Assembly (NCBI GenBank): GCA_010405405.1
Contig: MU004243.1
Location: 987,340 to 1,051,339 of the forward strand
Source: Microthyrium microscopicum
Lineage: Eukaryota > Ascomycota > Dothideomycetes > Microthyriales > Microthyriaceae
Direction: 5' to 3'
DNA: 64,000 nt
Shown one piece after another: positions 11,861 through 64,000 of this stretch. Under the pieces are notes generated by a model, which had not been told where the DNA came from, searched no databases, and saw only the letters and a list, made by a program, of their open reading frames with translations. Numbering within the stretch: position 1 is the first letter of the stretch; each line of letters starts with the position of its first letter. The translations under genes were made by a program, and so were the position numbers.

Positions 11861-12942
11861 TCGAACTCTTCGTAGGGCGATCCTGACAATATCTTTTGAC
11901 GCGCTGGAACTTCGAAGCAAGACTCTGGCCTCGTTGTCTTTTTATATCATATTTAAGCATAATCGGGAAACGTAGTAAAGTTTAATCCTGCTAAATATTT
12001 CATAGAAAATCTTTCACTCTCATGAAAGGTTGCTCAACTTTCGACTGATCAAATCGATGGAGCAGTCTAATCGTTGCAGTACGGAGTGAGTTTCTTCCTG
12101 CTGTGCTTTCACTGGTCACTGAGCGCGACTTTGTCATTGCGTTGTCCGATCTGTACAAGCCTTTTTTGAAGAATTTCATAGTCTGGCAACTTTTACTCAC
12201 TATAGATAGCAATGAAGTGTGCAGGCCTGTACTTGAAATATTCTCCAGCCTCACATTCATTCGTACTCCAATTGTACTAGCCTCAACTAATCCTGTGCTT
12301 CTTTCCAAAGTTTTTTATTCGAAGCCTTGAGCCTTTTCCAATGTCGTTTTGTGTCCTTTCTGGATTTCTATAGGAATACTACTGTGCCAGACGAAATCTG
12401 ACTTGATTGGGCTTTCACCCCTTTCCTTTGGGCTTCCTGACCTTTTACCCCTGAATCGGTGTACTCAAGGAAAATATTCCTGCTATCTGCAGCACTTCTC
12501 AGGCAAAGATTACACGCCACTCAAACTCTCCTTGATAATGTTCCAGGCCTTCAACGCATCTGGCCTCCAATATACTTTGCTACACCACATGCCTTGGCGC
12601 CTAGACCTATAAACGCTCTCTCGATGCTTTGGAACAAAGCCAAGCTTTTTCATAAGGTTCCTTTGACCACAGAGTGACACGAACCCCTCCGCGATGGCGC
12701 CCAAAGTTGACAAATGGGGGCAGAGCAGCTGAAAATAAGGAAAACAGATGTAGGGATTTGACATAATAAGACTTGCACGATCTCGCTTCCAGTGGTATGA
12801 AGATGCGTAGACTATCTTCTCCTTGTCTTGCTGCTGTTAAGTCTGTCCCTCTATTTCTTCTCGTTGGCAGTTATTCTCAACCACTTGATTAGACAATCAC
12901 TCTCCTGGAACCAAAACACAATTTTCATAATCTCAAAGCACA
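11861..12942. other. Intergenic, no convincing gene
   Basis: Several short frames occur on both strands, including a minus-strand frame at 12510-12764. None shows a domain, signal peptide or splice-linked continuation. It may contain decayed coding sequence, but I cannot support a gene. Confidence 0.4.
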
Positions 12943-13575
12943 ATGAAGTCTGGGATCCGAACCAGCGTAGCCATGCTACTCGCTCTCTCTCACGTCAGCC
13001 ATGCATATTTCGCCTGCTCCCTGAGCAACGCAGTGCCACTCAGTAGTCTCCTGCCCAGCGGAGGATCAACGGCAGGCGGTGGTGGTGGTGTCACCTACAC
13101 TCCGACATCACCAGGATGCAGTTTCTACATCGCCGCTGGAGGATCATGCACCACCAGCAAATCCAAACAAAAAGTCAAACGCAGCGGCTCAACTAATTCC
13201 GACCACCTTACGACCCATCGGAAAAGAACATACACCACTTTGCCTTGCTCGAATACGATGAGCTGTGTGACTGTGAAGGATCAACTGGGTTGCTTCGATC
13301 TCAACACCTACGACTATATCGACGATGAAGGCACCTGCGGCAATTTGAACACTGGTGAGGAAGAGACAGGATGTGTTGCAAAGTTCTTGGCAGCGCAATC
13401 GAGCCCAGCGAGTGCGATAAGAGTTGAATCGACAGGAACTGCCACTCCGGCGAACTCGACGGCATCGTCGTTAAGTGCGAAAACTGGGGCGTCGAAATCA
13501 GATGGCGAAGCTCTCATCCCCGCTAGGTCACTTCTAGCATTGCTTGTGTCGGTGCTTGGTTTATTAATGGTATGA
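12943..13575 (+). CDS. Secreted Cys-rich protein, probably GPI-anchored
   Basis: A single exon of 210 residues. The N-terminus (MKSGIRTSVAMLLALSHVSHA) is a signal peptide. The middle has a Gly-rich linker and about eight cysteines (CSFYIAAGGSC, LPCSNTMSCVTV, GCFDL, GTCGNL, TGC). A Ser/Thr-rich stalk (TGTATPANSTASSLSAKTG) leads to a hydrophobic end (RSLLALLVSVLGLLMV) with no basic tail after it, the pattern of a GPI-attachment signal. Cell-wall or membrane-surface location is inferred. I recognise no named domain, and the function is unknown. Confidence 0.7.
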   Translation: MKSGIRTSVAMLLALSHVSHAYFACSLSNAVPLSSLLPSGGSTAGGGGGVTYTPTSPGCSFYIAAGGSCTTSKSKQKVKRSGSTNSDHLTTHRKRTYTTLPCSNTMSCVTVKDQLGCFDLNTYDYIDDEGTCGNLNTGEEETGCVAKFLAAQSSPASAIRVESTGTATPANSTASSLSAKTGASKSDGEALIPARSLLALLVSVLGLLMV

Positions 13576-48890: not shown

Positions 48891-48956
48891 GGGCATTGTT
48901 AGCCGGCGCCAGAATATTTATTAACCGGCGCCAGAATATTCGTTAACCGGCGCCAG
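48891..48956 (+). repeat. MULE left inverted repeat (three 22-bp units)
   Basis: Three direct 22-bp units ending GGCGCCAG, matching 49544-49609 in inverted orientation at about 60 of 66 positions. Confidence 0.8.
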
Positions 48957-49543
48957 GAATATATGGCGCTCTAGGCTATGCCTAAATAGGAAATAAATAT
49001 AGAAATCTTGGTGTTGGTCTACTAAATTAAAAGCAGGTTCAAAGAAAGTGCAAAATATCAAAGCTTTTACTACGGACAAAGCCTGCGGGACCAGTTCAGC
49101 AGATTATCTCCTACGACAGCGATTTTACACCCAAAACACGCCTCTGGAAAGATCTATCTCTTCCGCATCCCATTACCCGTTTTGTGTCCTCCCGCAGCCA
49201 TTTCATATCCTATCTCGACCCCAGTTTTGGTGTTTTTATGTTCTCCAACCCGCGGGTCTGAAGGGAGGCTATTTCTACGACTTCTTTACATCTTTTAGCT
49301 CTAATAGTGCCCTGTTCTTAGAACCCGTTTTGTAGTTGGCGAAAATGTAGTTGTTATGGGTTAATGGTAGGGACTGTAAGACTCAAAGACTTGAAGATAA
49401 CGTAGTGAGGTAAGGCTTAGCTAACTAACGCTAGTGGGTTAATCTTGATGATCTTACTATATTCGGCTAGATTATATGGTTAAGGCTAGCCGCTATACCT
49501 GTTATAGCCTAAAGCGCCACAATATTACGCATACGGTATAGCT

Positions 49544-49609
49544 CTGGCGCCGGTTAACGAATATTCTGGCGCTGGCTAACAAAAATCCTGGCGCTGGCTA
49601 ACAATGCCC
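49544..49609 (-). repeat. MULE right inverted repeat (three 22-bp units)
   Basis: Inverted counterpart of 48891-48956. Confidence 0.8.
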
Positions 49610-49894: not shown

Positions 49895-52413
49895 ATGAAG
49901 TCTTTAACTTTCCTCGCATTCCACGTCATGCTCTTGGCCGCAGTTCAGGCTAATCCAGTGCCGGAGCCTATCCAGGAAGGAGACCCTAGCGTTGAGGTAT
50001 GTAAACTGTTCATGAGTTTTTCTCTTCACACAATACACCAATCTGGATATCACAGCACTGGGCTGTTTTTGGGTGTGGCTGTATGCTGTCTGTACTCTTC
50101 AAGTGTCTTTCTGGATCTTACACTCATAGCATTACCAGTACACTTTCCGACTTGCGGCTAACATTCAGTAGGCTGCTACCGAATGCAATGGTATGTCAAA
50201 ATTCGATGATGTAGACTCGTTCCGGGTCATTGACAGCAAGAATTAGGCGTTAAGTGTGGCCTCTTTGCCAAGGAGTCGTTCTGCTGTCCCGGTGCCATAT
50301 GCTCCAACAACTGGTACGGAACATGCGCCGTAAGTCGTTTCAGTCAGTGGTTGTTGTGCTATTATCACTTATGCATCTTCTAGACTTTAACGAAGAGGAC
50401 CAATAGCCTTGGAACTACCGACTGGATCAATAAAGATCCTTGGTGGTTTTGGTCTCATGGGACCCAGATCTCGGTATGTTGTCCTTGAAGATTGTTTCTA
50501 TCGATTGTCGTTGATAGAGTTGACCCGTATACAGAAACCACAAGACAAGGGGATCGAAGCAGATCACATCGATGGCGAGGGAAAAAGCAAGGTTGCTCGA
50601 GCTGAAATCCTTGAAGACAAGGTCCGTACTCTGCCGCTCTCTCGAGTTTCCATGCATCAAGTTATGTAGATACAAATCTAACCTTCTAATAGGCTCCAGC
50701 TTGTAATGCGCTTTGTTAGTGGAACCCAATCCAAATATCATTTGATGCTGACAAATATAGGGACTCCATGTAGACGTGACGCCGAGTGCTGTCAAAACCT
50801 CTTGTGCCGTACTGCCCCTAAAGGTTGGAGCTCGCCTGGAATCTGTGTTATTGATCACAATTTGATTCCCCCTGATGATTCGGATGAGTCATTCACTCGA
50901 GAGTCGAATCAGGAAACTCAAAACACTCACGATAAAGTGACTCGATCTGAGTTTACTAGTATCAAGGTACGCACTCCACTCCTATTCACATCTCTATCCG
51001 CATAGGCCGTTACTAACATCTGCTAGGCTCCAACTTGCCTCGGACTATGTTTGTTGATACTGGAAGGACTTGTCAACAAATGACTGACAATCCCAGATGA
51101 TGTATGCTATCAGACGGCAGGAGCCGAAGATTGCTGTGCACCTCTCAGCTGTGGTTATTCACGTGGAGCTACGTCAGGAATATGCAGAGATCCGTTCGCA
51201 AGACGCGGCGTTCGTTTGAGTGAAAAGGACGAAAGAGATTTCGAAGTCCTTGACGCCGAAGTGACTCGAGCTGAATCACCTCAAGTGGAGGAGGTGAGTG
51301 CTCCCGCCCTGCATTGATTGATCTTGCAGTCAATTGTTTACTCCGAGTCTAACAGCAGTAGGATCCCAACTGTGTCAGAGAAGGTTGGTAAACGCGGAAA
51401 AGAACACAAGTACGGAGGCTGATGAAAGTAGGAGGACCGTGCAAGACCTATGAGTGCTGTAATACACTGACCTGTGACACATCCAGAGGTCCTATTGGAA
51501 CTTGTGGATTCAACTTTCCGAAAGAGCGCACACCAATCGTGGACTCCGCAACTTCAAAAGTGGAAGAAAGCTACAAAGGGAATGGAGATGCTCTAGATCG
51601 AGCCCCTGGGGTGAAGGTACGAACTCATGCATTACTTGAGTCACTTGGGAATACTTTCAGAGGTTTATACATAAAGATCTGACGTTGACTAGAGTCCAAG
51701 CTGCTCAGGACTAGGTTATTAGACCTAAATATGGATATACGTTGTCACTTACTCACGAGCTATAGGAGCCGCATGTAGCGGAAGCGATTGCTGTGAAGGC
51801 CTTATATGTTCCACCACAGTGCAAACACTTGATGACTTTGCCGGCCCTATAGGAATCTGCAGGTTCTTTGCTAAGAGCTTTGGAGGAAGTGTACAAGCTT
51901 CAATCGAAAAAGTCGCACCGGATTCAAACGACAACATCGACGCTGCTAGCACCAAGATAACCCAAAAGCCGGTACGCATGGTGCTATCATCCTGAAAGTG
52001 CTACGTCGGTAGTTTCCCACGCTTACATTTCTAACCTATCATTCCCAGGAAAAACGAGGAATAATCAAGGGACTTATGCTTCACAATGAAAATGAGATTT
52101 CCAAAGACACCAAAGACGAAACAATTCAGGCTATTATCCCTGAAATCCCCAGAGCTGAAGTAAGTTCTCTCCGTATTATGTCTAGTAGTCAAATCTAACA
52201 TCATTCAGGCTCAGACCTGTGCCGGCGTCGGTTCGTAGACCTTCATATGAGATAGTTTCCCATAGACTTACGATTTCAGGGGTCGTTTGTCGTCAGGGCG
52301 ATTGCTGTAAGTTTTTAACTTGTTTCATAACTGACAGTTCAAGTCAAATCGGAGTGTGCGCTTTTCTAGAGGAGGATGAAGAAGCTGTCGTCAAAGTTCT
52401 CGCTGCCTCTTAG
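49895..52413 (+). CDS. Secreted six-module cystine-knot-like repeat protein
   Basis: Sixteen exons close in frame to 510 residues: 49895-49996, 50172-50190, 50247-50329, 50384-50473, 50535-50621, 50693-50714, 50761-50966, 51027-51048, 51097-51293, 51362-51383, 51429-51616, 51693-51714, 51766-51971, 52049-52159, 52209-52230, 52280-52413. The signal peptide is MKSLTFLAFHVMLLAAVQA, followed by NPVPEP. Six modules share C-x4/7-C-x4/8-CC-x4-C-x7/16-C, the inhibitor-cystine-knot order. Examples are CCPGAIC, CCQNLLC, CCAPLSC, CCNTLTC, CCEGLIC and CCKFLTC, each closed by G-x-C. Acidic, lysine-rich linkers separate them, with dibasic sites (TKR, ARR, EKR) that a Kex2 protease might cut. Each Cys1 sits on its own 19-22-nt exon. 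No family is recognised; extracellular, effector-like or inhibitor roles are guesses. Confidence 0.75.
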
Positions 52414-52999: not shown

Positions 53000-53392
53000 A
53001 TGGCAACGAGTACAGTGAAGTGTTTCCCGTTTATCTTCGTATCGGTCACTTTGCTCACCGCCATCCATTCCGATCCCGTTCCAACACGCTCCACAAGCGA
53101 AAATGCCGTTGATGTAACCGCTCATCTTGATGATATTCCTGTACTTTGGGTATGTTTCCTGGATTTCTTCGCGCTAGAAATTAGCACTTCTACTAGCCAC
53201 CACCTTGCAGTAAGTTATGTTTGGTCAAAGTCAACGAATTTCGCCCTCAGAAAGCTAACAGTAGCAGCGATCGGGGCGACGTGCTTCAAAGCTTTCCATC
53301 CGCCATGCTGTCCACAACTATTCTGCAATATGCACGGGCACAACGTGGGTTATAGAACTTGCGACTCTGATGGAGCTTCTGTGGGGCGATAA
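53000..53392 (+). CDS. Secreted single-module cystine-knot-like protein
   Basis: Three exons (53000-53149, 53197-53209, 53268-53392) give 95 residues. The signal peptide MATSTVKCFPFIFVSVTLLTAIHS is followed by DPVPTR, echoing NPVPEP in the upstream gene. A 13-nt exon encodes PPPC plus the first base of the next codon. The last exon supplies IGATCFKAFHPPCCPQLFC and GYRTC. Spacing is C-x5-C-x7-CC-x4-C-x11-C. The same phase-1 split after Cys1 ties it to its neighbours. Cleaved, the product would be about 70 residues. Function unknown. Confidence 0.68.
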   Translation: MATSTVKCFPFIFVSVTLLTAIHSDPVPTRSTSENAVDVTAHLDDIPVLWVCFLDFFALEISTSTSHHLAVSYVWSKSTNFALRKLTVAAIGATCFKAFHPPCCPQLFCNMHGHNVGYRTCDSDGASVGR

Positions 53393-53706: not shown

Positions 53707-54416
53707 ATGCAGCCGTCAGTGTTTTTCTTGGTGATTACAACTGTGTTTACCGCCCACACATATGCCAATCCCTTTCCAGCAGCTTTTGCTGCTGGGGACG
53801 CAGTCGAAACAATCGCTCAGAGGACAGATCCTGTTAATCCTATTGTATGTTTTCCCATACAACCTAAGAACGCCTGATATCTAACACATCTATCGAGCAG
53901 TTAACAGAGTGTTGTCAGTACCACGTGAAATCAAGATAACCCATATCAAAGTTCTAACAGCAACAGCGGAGTATTGCAATCCCAATGCCGAGCCCATGTG
54001 CTGTCCAGGCTACTGGTGCTACCGTGTTCCGCAGAGCACGGCCAAAGTTGGATATTGTCTTTTAGGAAATGAACCCACTGTCGAGGACGTGGTCCACAAA
54101 GACGTTATACAAAACGACGTTGTTGACAATGGCGCCGTGAAGAGAGACGTCATTAAAACACCCATGCTGACAGATAAACCGGCTGTAATGTTTCCTATAG
54201 GTGCTACCGTTGCATAACTAAAATTCTTGACAGTAGCAATGTCTTGGCTGTTCGTCACATCTCATTTTATCATAAGCTACCCGAAGAAGTCTAACAATTG
54301 CAGCGCTACACCTTTGCGACCTTACGGCGGTTCCCGACTCTTGCTGCCCTGGCTGCTTTTGCTATCATAGCGGAGCTGGCGGTCCAACAATGGGATGCTG
54401 CTATGGTATGTGTTGA
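53707..54416 (+). CDS. Secreted two-module cystine-knot-like protein
   Basis: Five exons (53707-53844, 53901-53913, 53967-54184, 54237-54249, 54304-54416) give 164 residues. The signal peptide MQPSVFFLVITTVFTAHTYA precedes NPFPAA. Module 1 (LTECSEYC, MCCPGYWC, VGYC) is followed by a linker with near-repeats DVVHKDVIQNDVVDNGAVKR. A 52-bp intron with donor at 54185 then leads to a second 13-nt exon and module 2 (CDLTAVPDSCCPGCFC, TMGCCYGMC). If that intron is not removed, translation ends at 54217 with module 1 alone, a 133-residue form. The second module has two or three extra cysteines. Confidence 0.65.
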
Positions 54417-61000: not shown

Positions 61001-62691
61001 CCAAATCCGAAGCATAATAGCAGCCTGCAATGTTGCGTTGCACTCAGTTCAGGAAGTAGTTGTAGTGCAGCACCTGTTGTAGAGTTTCGAGAAATCTCAA
61101 GAAAGACATCGTACCAGATTTTGGGCATTGAATATTGAAACTTGTGTGAAATCAGGGCGACTACAGGAGCTACGTCTCGATGAGCGAGAAAAATTGATGT
61201 ATGGAATAAAGCCGTGAGCCATGTACGGAGCAAATCCGTTGCTTTTTGATCCATAGAAAGATGTCGAGTAATCGTTGTGATAATACTGTCAGGCTGGTAA
61301 TCTATATCTCCTACAATACACCACTGAGAGCTAGAATAGCTTCGTTCGCTCAGATATTGTATCGCCGCTTTGAGGTGATGTTCTGTAAAGAGAGTACTGG
61401 TGACAGCCGATTTATTCTTTACTTGGGCTGTAGACTGGCATGCAAGACTCGTCCAGTATAGTAGTAGCTGTATCTCGGCCACTTGACTCTGCAGTGGCAA
61501 TGGACCCAGCGACTTTCTCCCACGCGACCCTGATTTTGAGTGTATTGCCGCGAACAGAGCCGTCATCTCGGTATCGAGTTCTTCACGGGGTACTTTTGAT
61601 GCAACATTTGGTACTATTGATTCGCGTATTTGTAAGGGCCAGCAGATCTTAAAAAGTTTGAATTGTATGGCTCGCATCCCCGGAACATCCAGAAACTGGC
61701 CTACTTGAAGGCGGAGCTTTTGTAGAACAATAGCATCAGGGCTCTCCTGAACCTTGCATTCCGCGAGCCCATGGACGATAGCCGAATATACGCCAACAGT
61801 GATACCAGCTTCTTTCTGTTTTCCTCCAGGTTCAATCCAGATAGGGAGTGCGTCCAAAACTCGGTGTAAATCTTTGGAATCCACCAATCCGCTTATCAAT
61901 GCCTGCCTCAAGCAGTGTATGTACTGCCTGAACTCGGAGCTAGAGACTTGCTCATCTTTCAGTCGTTCCAATAGGGTCGAAAAACAAGCAGATCCAGGAG
62001 CAATATTGGCTGGATTACCAAGAAATCTCAGAAGCTCCTGAAACGGCGCAACGCGATCCAGCAAGCTCTCAAAAGCTTCCCGGCTCTCATTCGCTGTTGT
62101 TATGACATCAGCCAGCGCATCATCCGGCCATGTCGGCGCCAGCACTGGTTCAGGTGCCAGATAATGCTCAGCAAGGCTTGCGAGCAAGTGCACTGCATCC
62201 TCCTTCCTCTTTCGCTTCCTTGGCAGTGGTCGCGACTCCGCTGGCAGAGGCTCAACGACTTGCTTTGGCGCCAAATAATGCTCAGCAAGTCCAGCTAGCA
62301 AATGCGCTGCATCCTCTTTACTTTTCTTTCGCTTCCTTGGTTGTCGGCGAGACTCGGCTAGTGCAGGAAATATACGCCCATCTGGTGGCTCCCAAGCCGG
62401 CTCTTTTGCTTTCCAAGCCGTGGAAGCGAATAGTTTTGATCCAAACAGCGCACCAATATCAATTGCTGACGCAGGGCTATAGGATTGGTATTGACCCATT
62501 CGACGCTTCCCCAGTCGTCGTTGGGCTTCCAGTGGCCCTGGTACACTACTTCCATGTCTCTTCTTGACAACATTTGCGAATCGATTGTAGGCGTTGTTGA
62601 GGATGGAGTCTGATATCCAGATAAAGTTGTGAGGTTGGGAAGACGAGAGTTGTTTGGCGAGTCGGCGACATTGCGGGCGAGAAGGGTTCAT
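58018..62691 (-). CDS. Large conserved fungal protein of unknown function
   Basis: One uninterrupted exon of 1557 residues, the longest frame in the window. The N-terminus has NRFANVVKKRHGSSVPGPLE and RRLGKRRMGQYQSYSP, a segment I associate with large single-exon Pezizomycotina unknowns. An internal duplication covers residues about 112-142 and 151-180 (PRKRKKSKEDAAHLLAGLAE versus PRKRKRKEDAVHLLASLAEH, each ending HYLAP). Its basic runs could be nuclear signals. The middle 700 residues look all-helical and repeat-like. The last third is low-complexity, Ser/Thr-rich and basic. No catalytic motif is seen. Scaffold-like function is a guess. Confidence 0.6.
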   Translation of the reverse strand: MNPSRPQCRRLAKQLSSSQPHNFIWISDSILNNAYNRFANVVKKRHGSSVPGPLEAQRRLGKRRMGQYQSYSPASAIDIGALFGSKLFASTAWKAKEPAWEPPDGRIFPALAESRRQPRKRKKSKEDAAHLLAGLAEHYLAPKQVVEPLPAESRPLPRKRKRKEDAVHLLASLAEHYLAPEPVLAPTWPDDALADVITTANESREAFESLLDRVAPFQELLRFLGNPANIAPGSACFSTLLERLKDEQVSSSEFRQYIHCLRQALISGLVDSKDLHRVLDALPIWIEPGGKQKEAGITVGVYSAIVHGLAECKVQESPDAIVLQKLRLQVGQFLDVPGMRAIQFKLFKICWPLQIRESIVPNVASKVPREELDTEMTALFAAIHSKSGSRGRKSLGPLPLQSQVAEIQLLLYWTSLACQSTAQVKNKSAVTSTLFTEHHLKAAIQYLSERSYSSSQWCIVGDIDYQPDSIITTITRHLSMDQKATDLLRTWLTALFHTSIFLAHRDVAPVVALISHKFQYSMPKIWYDVFLEISRNSTTGAALQLLPELSATQHCRLLLCFGFGSYFTRPRERAIADETTLGRHDQVVARAAWLTELALHRPRNYNATEAPDEFIALISAWAHVGLQWGFEMDVVVKILHSLHGGIGVVLDFLHLLIKAGIQHSYEPGAQLGTIVRIASYLYEQCASEAERERLVFYTWELSKKLLDQSSWRTFKFNETAKLKLDSGVCYPMSASGYLPLVEKVAWLAANDEAMPSWMAFTIVYYFSRLLRVNGHAHTNGIGRALSMAGIFRPLQETRGYTRSRAQFVLGYLRRCGTDKKLLSQMDLLMRRWQRLALHQKEQAAEIFHFKALQSLNVLRDQGVYDLYSFHEGNAQLQEPWNHTPQPRSQPEWSGDRRSIREHVATQLERIKSTFSKVDTASRGILNPYVSAGEQLAQGAKSNSKSISVLHKARVTATGRIINDRDSDKHDVKKTNLNKGVVFLLRTFQPRHNSAPSLVNAVSSTIAPSPVGLAAHDSTSVAKHDASNATTVLQRSGFPARRAATIESSLFVSKQVAVADSKKAIFAALRYPNTAWRKVGDVPDSAPPNTISKKLVLTSQPDNEVQPESLNGHIVSRPLQHTANDLKQRHLLDLTEPFKLVNPDRDEQPAWMNQKLPKTAEYQAKNLFATPTAEHLYDLVRLSNLETQRMIDGFSPTSPNLAFPSSSKILHIPKIQSAKAMKYSAIKLDIQTKPSVGHKRQWHLSRSPTLQTAMGGSALQTTLQKLGRGFSTTRYLKIVEDDEKRPPNTSSSTSVRSHTREAATLAVAKRLLERLQDIAADSHEQHNYRPGQTHKTLTFRAPADEDPEKLTVKEGNAKDSIAEHPTTQVSFAKGASLSSHLGRATTTRQADTSPNEPTVLQSVIVNSHWNEQHIPQQQLYDPGRKLRVIRRQRGALDTIAASMLNLHRARQVNPETIAVSHESIPKASIAKAGPAAIEGAAIDDLGGLDNRVLRSGDTMQDTYVHASTWRTIRLSKMMHPSQKKSGKDNPTRKKTRKDEVVGKKAGSLQVSALSKLGD
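62152..62358 (-). repeat. Internal tandem duplication in the 1557-residue protein
   Basis: Two adjacent copies of a roughly 115-bp in-frame unit encode PRKRK...HLLAxLAEHYLAP. Copies differ at several codons, so the duplication is not brand new. Confidence 0.7.
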
Positions 62692-62969
62692 GAAGCGAGA
62701 GACATTGGGCGATGAGTTGTTGAGCCTTCTATTTACGAGTCGATTGGGCGCATGTAGGAGGCAGAAGTTTGGGCTTGGTGATGTGTTTGCTGGGTGGATT
62801 GAAATTCAAGAAAACAGTTGAGATGGAAGCAGTTGAATTGAACTTTTTGACTTTCAAACTTTCAAGCTTCAATTGGAGGACAGGGGTCAGTCTTGGCGCG
62901 ATTTTTAATTCAGCGCATCTGGCTATTTTATGCCTGGAAGAACCTCTATAGGTTCGGAAGGGATAGTAT
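62692..62969. promoter_or_regulatory. Promoter region of the 1557-residue protein gene
   Basis: Normal-composition sequence between the gene start and the AT-rich block. No coding signal is supported. Confidence 0.4.
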
Positions 62970-64000
62970 TAGTAAAAAAAGGAAAAAGGGAGGTTAGTGA
63001 GTTTTCTACCTAGAAATGATTTTGCCCTACGTTATAATTTATAATTATTTCGTCTAATTTGTCTCTCTAATTAGTTTCTAAAGCAAGACCTTTAATTAGT
63101 TTAACTATCTTAATTCTTTAGTCCTTTTTAAGCTATAAGTTATTAACTAAGGTTTAATCTATTAAAGATATTAATTATTATTAACTATCTTAATTATATT
63201 AACTATTTTATTACTATTATATATTTTTACTACTAATTATTAATATTAATTGTTAAAGTTATTATTAGTTTCCTCTTTCTCTTTCTTTATTTTATTATTA
63301 TCTATATTATTACTATCTTTTATATCTTAGTATTATAGTATTAAAGCTAGCTCTATATAAAGGTTAACTAGTCTCTTTAACTTTCTAATATTTAATAGAT
63401 AGTATTTAAGATTATATATATTTATATTATAAATACGTATTTTTAATAATTTTGCTATTAGATATTAGTATATAGAGACTTTAATAAAAATATATAGGTA
63501 GTAGCGTTTAGTATATAGTTAAAATAATTACTTAGATTAATTAGATAAAGAGTTATTACTTTTATTTTCTTTATAGATCTATTATTATATTAATTATATA
63601 TTTAGTATTATAAATAAAGCTCTTATTTACTAACGTATTTTTTTATATTTTTTTTAGAAAGGTATTAAATAATAGTTTAGTTATAAAAGGTTTAGTAATA
63701 AACCTTATAGGAAGGCTCTAATATAATAAGTTTTTATATAAAAGAATCTATTTAAGGCCTAATTCTTTATATTTTAGTAAGTCTTAGAAATATAGTAGTA
63801 TTAGCTATTTTATAAAGTATTATTATATATAGTATAAGAAAAAAAAGTAAAATACTTAGTAATCTATAAAAACTACTTATTTTTACTTATTAAATATAGC
63901 TATTTTATTTATATAAAAGTAAATATATTAGTAGGTAATTAAGAATATCTTACCTTAGAGATATATTTTAAACTATTATAGTATTTTAACTTTCTATTAT
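62970..64000. repeat. AT-rich RIP-like block, open at window edge
   Basis: Composition changes abruptly to almost pure A/T with hardly any CG or GG/CC steps, and stops crowd every frame. This is the mark of repeat-induced point mutation on an old repeat. Neither the element class nor its right end can be told from the window. Confidence 0.6.

Follow-up and report, generated by a model that had tools for sequence, protein, structure and literature searches.

A gene of Microthyrium microscopicum, a leaf-litter fungus of the Dothideomycetes, was found to encode six copies of a six-cysteine module in one chain, and its product is very probably a secreted protein made of six inhibitor cystine knot (ICK) domains. 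ICK chains of this length are unusual, and this one would be the longest natural example known to us. Every module is encoded by its own microexon together with the exon that follows it, and two genes with one module each lie downstream. The coordinates of all features are collected in Table 1.

Gene structure and module design

The window, that is the whole stretch of DNA analysed, comprised 64,000 nt of contig 14 (1,141,360 bases) of the 36.9 Mb genome. Splicing of the six-module gene, with exon ends placed by reading, removed 15 GT-AG introns of 46-175 nt and gave a coding sequence of 1530 nt. The resulting product was identical in every letter to the deposited hypothetical protein BT63DRAFT_429883, which bears out the start, the stop, the 16 exons and the six modules proposed by the sequence-only reading of this DNA. 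An in-frame stop resulted from the retention of any of the 15 introns, and the skipping of any of the six microexons (19-22 nt) caused a frameshift.

Table 1. Features of the cystine-knot locus of M. microscopicum (positions are those of the window)
Feature	Position	Strand	Content	Basis
Whole gene	49895..52413	+	16 exons, 509 aa, six-module, putatively secreted protein (BT63DRAFT_429883)	Splicing, identity to deposit
Exon 1	49895..49996	+	Putative signal peptide and N-terminal NPVPEP stretch, end phase 0	Splicing, hydrophobicity
Module 1	50172..50329	+	Microexon 50172-50190 (C1), exon 50247-50329 (C2-C6)	Splicing, Cys loops
Spacer exons, modules 1/2	50384..50621	+	Two phase-0 exons, 50384-50473 and 50535-50621	Splicing
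Module 2	50693..50966	+	Microexon 50693-50714, exon 50761-50966	Splicing, Toxin_12 above cut-off (module alone)
Module 3	51027..51293	+	Microexon 51027-51048, exon 51097-51293	Splicing, Cys loops
Module 4	51362..51616	+	Microexon 51362-51383, exon 51432-51616	Splicing, Cys loops
Module 5	51693..51971	+	Microexon 51693-51714, exon 51766-51971	Splicing, Toxin_12 above cut-off (module alone)
Spacer exon, modules 5/6	52049..52159	+	One phase-0 exon	Splicing
Module 6	52209..52413	+	Microexon 52209-52230, exon 52280-52413 including stop	Splicing, Cys loops
Gene 2, single-module paralogue	53000..53392	+	95 aa, exons 53000-53149, 53197-53209, 53268-53392	Inferred model
Gene 3, single-module paralogue	53707..54217	+	135 aa, exons 53707-53844, 53901-53913, 53961-54217	Inferred model

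Residues 3-18 of the product held all six of the most hydrophobic 11-residue windows, with a maximum of 2.43 on the Kyte-Doolittle scale against 1.47 for the top window beyond residue 20, and the stretch AVQANPVP follows directly. This N-terminal maximum fits a signal peptide, and by eye the N-terminus is plausibly one, which supports the secretion predicted by the earlier reading. The computed pI after residue 20 was 4.7, four of the five inter-module linkers were acidic and one neutral, and the net charge of the eight modules, those of genes 2 and 3 included, ranged from -4 to +2. The acidic chain and linkers and the module charges do not suggest a simple cationic antimicrobial role.

The 36 cysteines of the protein are distributed as six per module in the order C-C-CC-C-C. 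The modules measure 29-36 aa and follow the pattern C-x(4-6)-C-x(4-8)-CC-x4-C-x(7-16)-C. In all six the first cysteine (C1) lies on a microexon of its own, with start phase 0 and end phase 1. C2 to C6 lie on the following exon, whose end phase is 0 except in module 6, where it runs to the stop. The exon pairs of modules 1-5 are symmetric 0-0 units, since the phase is 0 at both ends, and could be duplicated without a change of frame.

The strict regular expression C-x(3-9)-CC-x4-C-x(5-18)-C, applied in six frames, matched eight times in the window, all on one strand and within a span of at most 3.8 kb, with six cores in BT63DRAFT_429883 and two downstream. In 60 Markov-1 resamples of the window such chance matches averaged 0.23 and never exceeded 2, and 189,661 nt of contig 14 flank (19 stretches) held one match, which was judged by eye to be due to chance. 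Because two of the eight matches are the single-module genes, the true feature extends past the end of the six-module gene, where the earlier reading had ended it, to ∼54217.

Genes 2 and 3 were modelled from the exon pattern that they have in common with the six-module gene. Each model opens with an exon of signal-peptide type (end phase 0), continues with a C1 microexon of 13 nt (end phase 1) and closes with an exon for C2-C6, and the N-termini have a (N/D)P(V/F)P motif in common. The deposited model of gene 3, BT63DRAFT_460699 (188 aa), uses other splice sites, lacks C1 and has a different tail. It was the only protein returned by a database search with genes 2 and 3 aligned to the six module units (545 candidates, word-limited search), which returned no deposited protein for gene 2. 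Cysteine modules split by microexons may therefore be easily mis-annotated, as these two genes illustrate. With a looser regular expression a possible ninth module, irregular and with extra Cys, appeared at 54315-54410 just 3' of gene 3, a stretch that the deposited gene 3 model reads in another frame. The cluster of knottin-type genes is bordered by an Aa_trans transporter frame on one side and a TCP-1 chaperonin frame on the other.

Modules 2-6 and the module of gene 2 were 30-46% identical to module 1, in short alignments in which the cysteines are counted. When the module cores were compared with shuffles that kept the cysteines in place, 13 of 28 pairs were closer than the shuffles at p≤0.05, the other 15 fell short, and the gene 2 module exceeded them in none of its seven pairs; module homology thus rests no less on the common exon design than on residues. 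Among the module introns one of 28 pairs was more alike than shuffles at p≤0.02, that of modules 5 and 6, with two more at 0.025 and 0.035. The introns being mostly at shuffle-level similarity, most duplications look old, with the cysteine framework kept; the cysteines, the phases and the CC-x4-C core persist despite the divergence of the introns. The youngest duplicates may be modules 5 and 6. The adjacent cysteines were encoded by TGC-TGT in all eight modules (50282, 50787, 51132, 51455, 51789, 52303, 53306 and 53999), and six other long open reading frames of the window used TGC 34 and TGT 24 times.

Fold of the modules

A profile of seven modules (the six and that of gene 2, with gene 3 left out) was searched against 177,635 PDB sequences and gave 57 matches at E≤10. 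The best match was the double ICK Xt3a (2.7e-5), followed by 1koz and Hi1a. Chains of at most 82 aa, with names that were mostly those of toxins or asteropsins, made up 55 of the 57 matches; the other two were flavivirus methyltransferases (E 0.19 and 0.24). A profile of the reversed modules had no match in the PDB. Three control profiles from shuffles that kept the cysteines reached best E-values of 0.068, 0.035 and 0.0094 with 7, 9 and 3 small chains, named mostly as toxins or alpha-amylase inhibitors; in the first of them C6 was left spread over more than one alignment column. The third brought in a further 51 chains, large and unrelated (E≥0.24), that aligned in their first few dozen residues, so that raw match counts are unusable as a measure. 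The cysteine spacing by itself already favours small chains of knottin type, and with the remaining residues the signal becomes ∼350-fold sharper than in the best control. The third shuffle (0.0094) narrows the margin of the real profile over the controls without removing it. Measured against its shuffled and reversed controls, the profile argues for the ICK type that the sequence-only reading had proposed for the modules. The predicted knot would join cysteines I-IV, II-V and III-VI, with the III-VI bond passing through the ring.

The spacing C-x2-7-C-x3-10-C-x0-7-C-x1-17-C-x4-19-C, which the available text of PMC6889267 gives for knottins, was found in all eight modules, those of the modelled genes 2 and 3 included. 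Against the Pfam family Toxin_12 (PF07740, cut-off 21 bits) the whole protein scored 19.8 bits, 1.2 bits short. When the modules were scanned singly, module 2 (22.0 bits) and module 5 (24.1 bits) exceeded the cut-off, and the family was not listed for modules 1, 3, 4 and 6 or for gene 2. The sequence database lists PF07740 for BT63DRAFT_429883. A phmmer search of the whole protein against the PDB gave a macrodomain protein as best match (E 0.097) and three ICK toxins at E 0.86-8.1, and an NCBIfam scan returned a single row at chance level (E 0.15).

Linkers, processing and alternative readings

The modules are separated by linkers of 39-77 aa, and the earlier reading had suggested that these are cut at dibasic sites. 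Pairs of K and R, all of them KR or RR, were found at residues 72, 139, 246 and 423, where ∼2.2 pairs are expected from the composition. The pair at 139 lies within module 2 and the others lie in linkers 1, 3 and 5, so that dibasic sites occur in three of the five linkers and are missing between modules 2 and 3 and modules 4 and 5. The case for dibasic cutting is thus weak, the sites being not clearly above chance, and Kex2 cutting as a general rule was rejected. A different motif, hydrophobic-x-R-[AS], occurs in each of the five linkers between modules and is confined to them within the 509 aa. Its arginines lie at 120, 196, 268, 340 and 456, and the next C1 follows 6-12 residues on. None of 20,000 linker shuffles reached four or more of the five linkers, for a pattern that was picked after the linkers had been read. 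Neither the stretch preceding module 1 nor those preceding the single modules of genes 2 and 3 carry the motif, and common descent alone could account for its presence in the linkers.

The reading that we favour, with confidence that is about even, is that of a secreted polyprotein with six independently folding ICK domains, which grew by duplication of an exon pair and whose linkers are cut to give single knots. The phase-symmetric exon pair of each module suggests that the chain probably grew in this way. The ancestor would have been a three-exon gene for a single knottin, with a signal exon, a C1 microexon and a C2-C6 exon, of which the symmetric 0-0 exon pair would have been duplicated within the gene and whole genes duplicated alongside the six-module gene. 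The polyprotein would enter the secretory pathway, where the modules would fold into separate knots and one of its endoproteases would cleave the linkers on the C-terminal side of the hydrophobic-x-R-[AS] arginine. One transcript would then yield several different knottins, acting as extracellular binding or inhibitory peptides; competitors, grazers and plant litter are guesses at their targets or settings. For the cleavage into single knots, taken by itself, we hold the arguments to be evenly balanced. Cuts at hydrophobic-x-R-[AS] alone would leave long C-terminal tails, and the post hoc choice of the motif and its absence ahead of module 1 and from genes 2 and 3 also count against the polyprotein, as do the whole-protein Toxin_12 score (19.8 against 21) and the fact that only 13 of 28 module pairs exceeded the shuffles. 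A fuller proposal is made tentatively and with somewhat less than even confidence: the protein would be a fungal polyknottin and the longest natural ICK chain known, grown by duplication of a two-exon unit and not within an exon, matured at the monobasic motif into six different knottins, with the single-knot neighbours as the ancestral form.

The chain might instead stay intact and gain avidity from its repeated domains, as double-knot toxins do, which we regard as possible but rather unlikely. The best PDB match of the module profile is a double ICK, the third, Hi1a (1.1e-3), is another, and the chains of Hs1a, which we take to be DkTx, match weakly at E 1.2-7.6. Dibasic sites that do not clearly exceed chance also fit an uncut chain, and double ICKs are described as binding bivalently (available text of PMC9950431 and PMC6262176). 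The long linkers with their recurring R-[AS] motif speak against it, and the modules are very dissimilar outside the cysteines, so that a mixed set fits better than an avidity array. Less probable still is a tandem cysteine-rich protein of the cell wall or surface with a protective or regulatory role towards enzymes of the fungus itself. It would have the general architecture of QID74, with secreted cysteine-rich repeats, but the repeats of QID74 are described with eight cysteines and another motif (available text of PMC13170347). Pfam scans of the protein and modules found no chitin-binding domain, and the last 30 residues reached at most 1.21 (Kyte-Doolittle) against 2.43 in the signal peptide, which argues against a hydrophobic anchor.

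That the modules have this cysteine order in a fold other than ICK we consider very improbable. The evidence for the fold comes from sequence, and modules 2 and 4 had matches to Dickkopf_N and DUF7866 below the cut-offs; the module profile, set against the shuffled and reversed modules, nevertheless points to ICK. A precursor of a dikaritin-type RiPP, with repeats cut by Kex2 and cyclised by UstYa, would share the signal peptide and the repeats, and the genome has at least 22 match rows for UstYa. Among the matches listed none lies in the window, and the one listed for contig 14 is ∼520 kb off. The modules, moreover, are diverged disulfide units of 29-36 aa and not short, near-identical cores. 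This reading is scarcely credible and was rejected, as UstYa was not found in the cluster among the matches listed. The UstYa rows, of which several may be exons of a single gene, are spread over ten contigs, which suggests several dikaritin-type clusters elsewhere in the M. microscopicum genome.

Relatives, known systems and surroundings

A search of ∼5.8 billion sequences with the full protein returned only the protein itself at E≤10 (6,506 candidates, word-limited search), and residues 205-390 likewise returned only this protein (486 candidates). Such a search needs common 5-residue words and similar length, and so the lack of relatives outside the species is weak evidence. Genome searches with DUF7866, single-gene and whole-protein queries found only the known genes; the same queries also miss sister modules, so that copies elsewhere may be overlooked. 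A Toxin_12 match on contig 13 was dropped as a further copy, being below the cut-off (E 0.56) and having an internal stop. In the titles and abstract starts of open-licence literature no fungal multi-ICK protein was found, and none of the 57 chains matched by the module profile is named as fungal.

The repeats of Cin1 from Venturia inaequalis, a member of the Dothideomycetes, are helical and have four cysteines. Cin1 resembles the present locus as a secreted, multi-repeat, cysteine-rich protein with single-repeat paralogues; it has eight repeats and is said to be Venturia-specific (available text of PMC9632046). Avr9 and the Histoplasma knottins, of the Fungi1 knottin family, and Melampsora MLP124266 are fungal proteins likewise secreted with an ICK domain, but the available texts describe one such domain apiece (PMC4503680, PMC6889267). 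QID74 of Trichoderma shares fungal, secreted, tandem cysteine-rich repeats and differs in its 13 repeats, each 59 aa long and with eight cysteines, and in binding a chitinase, as far as PMC13170347 is available.

The earlier statement that knottins are nearly always single-domain stands as a tendency with exceptions, namely two-domain ICK toxins, a putative three-domain one (available text of PMC9950431 and PMC13172734) and the multi-knottin TIPTOP precursors of plants. DkTx, Hi1a/Hc1a, Xt3a and U1-Pm2a resemble the Microthyrium protein, with its putative ICK domains, in that several such domains follow one another in a single secreted chain. These animal toxins, as described in those texts, have two and once putatively three ICK domains, in contrast to six in the fungal chain. 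A spider-toxin paper of 2026 states that a three-domain ICK peptide had not previously been described, to its authors' knowledge, and places the whole mature double toxin of the Hc1a subfamily on one intron-free exon, from an intra-exon duplication (available text of PMC13172734), whereas each Microthyrium domain has an exon pair. TIPTOP precursors also carry several knottins that are cut apart, but at asparaginyl endopeptidase sites and with cyclisation, and the MCoTI knots lack the adjacent CC (available text of PMC7101308). SCREPs are similar as secreted repeats of independently folding disulfide domains, defined by a secretion signal and repeated disulfide domains with detectable self-alignment; here a signal-like N-terminus precedes six modules with the 30-46% identity given above. 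SCREP is a descriptive class and not a family, and the available text of PMC6262176 places ICK outside its 20 commonest folds and makes no mention of fungi. As far as these sources describe them, none of the nearest known arrangements combines six ICK domains, a fungal host and exon-pair duplication. With six putative ICK domains on intron-split, phase-symmetric exon pairs and single-domain copies adjoining them, an exon-duplication route to multi-ICK proteins would become directly testable, and the single transcript would offer a natural set of diverse knottin scaffolds.

Three further observations were made in the window. An element of 719 bp at 48891-49609, lying upstream of BT63DRAFT_429883 with 285 bp between its end and the start codon, has terminal inverted repeats of 73 nt (88% complementary) built of 22-nt direct repeats. 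It looks like a mobile element, since sequences matching its end are found in inverted pairs on contigs 7 and 8 too (6 rows in total). The open frame at 12931-13575 has a signal-peptide-like start, a hydrophobic C-terminus and cysteines, and by eye may encode a wall-anchored secreted protein. The G+C content drops to 0.33 in 62001-64000; the remaining 2-kb windows range from 0.41 to 0.52.
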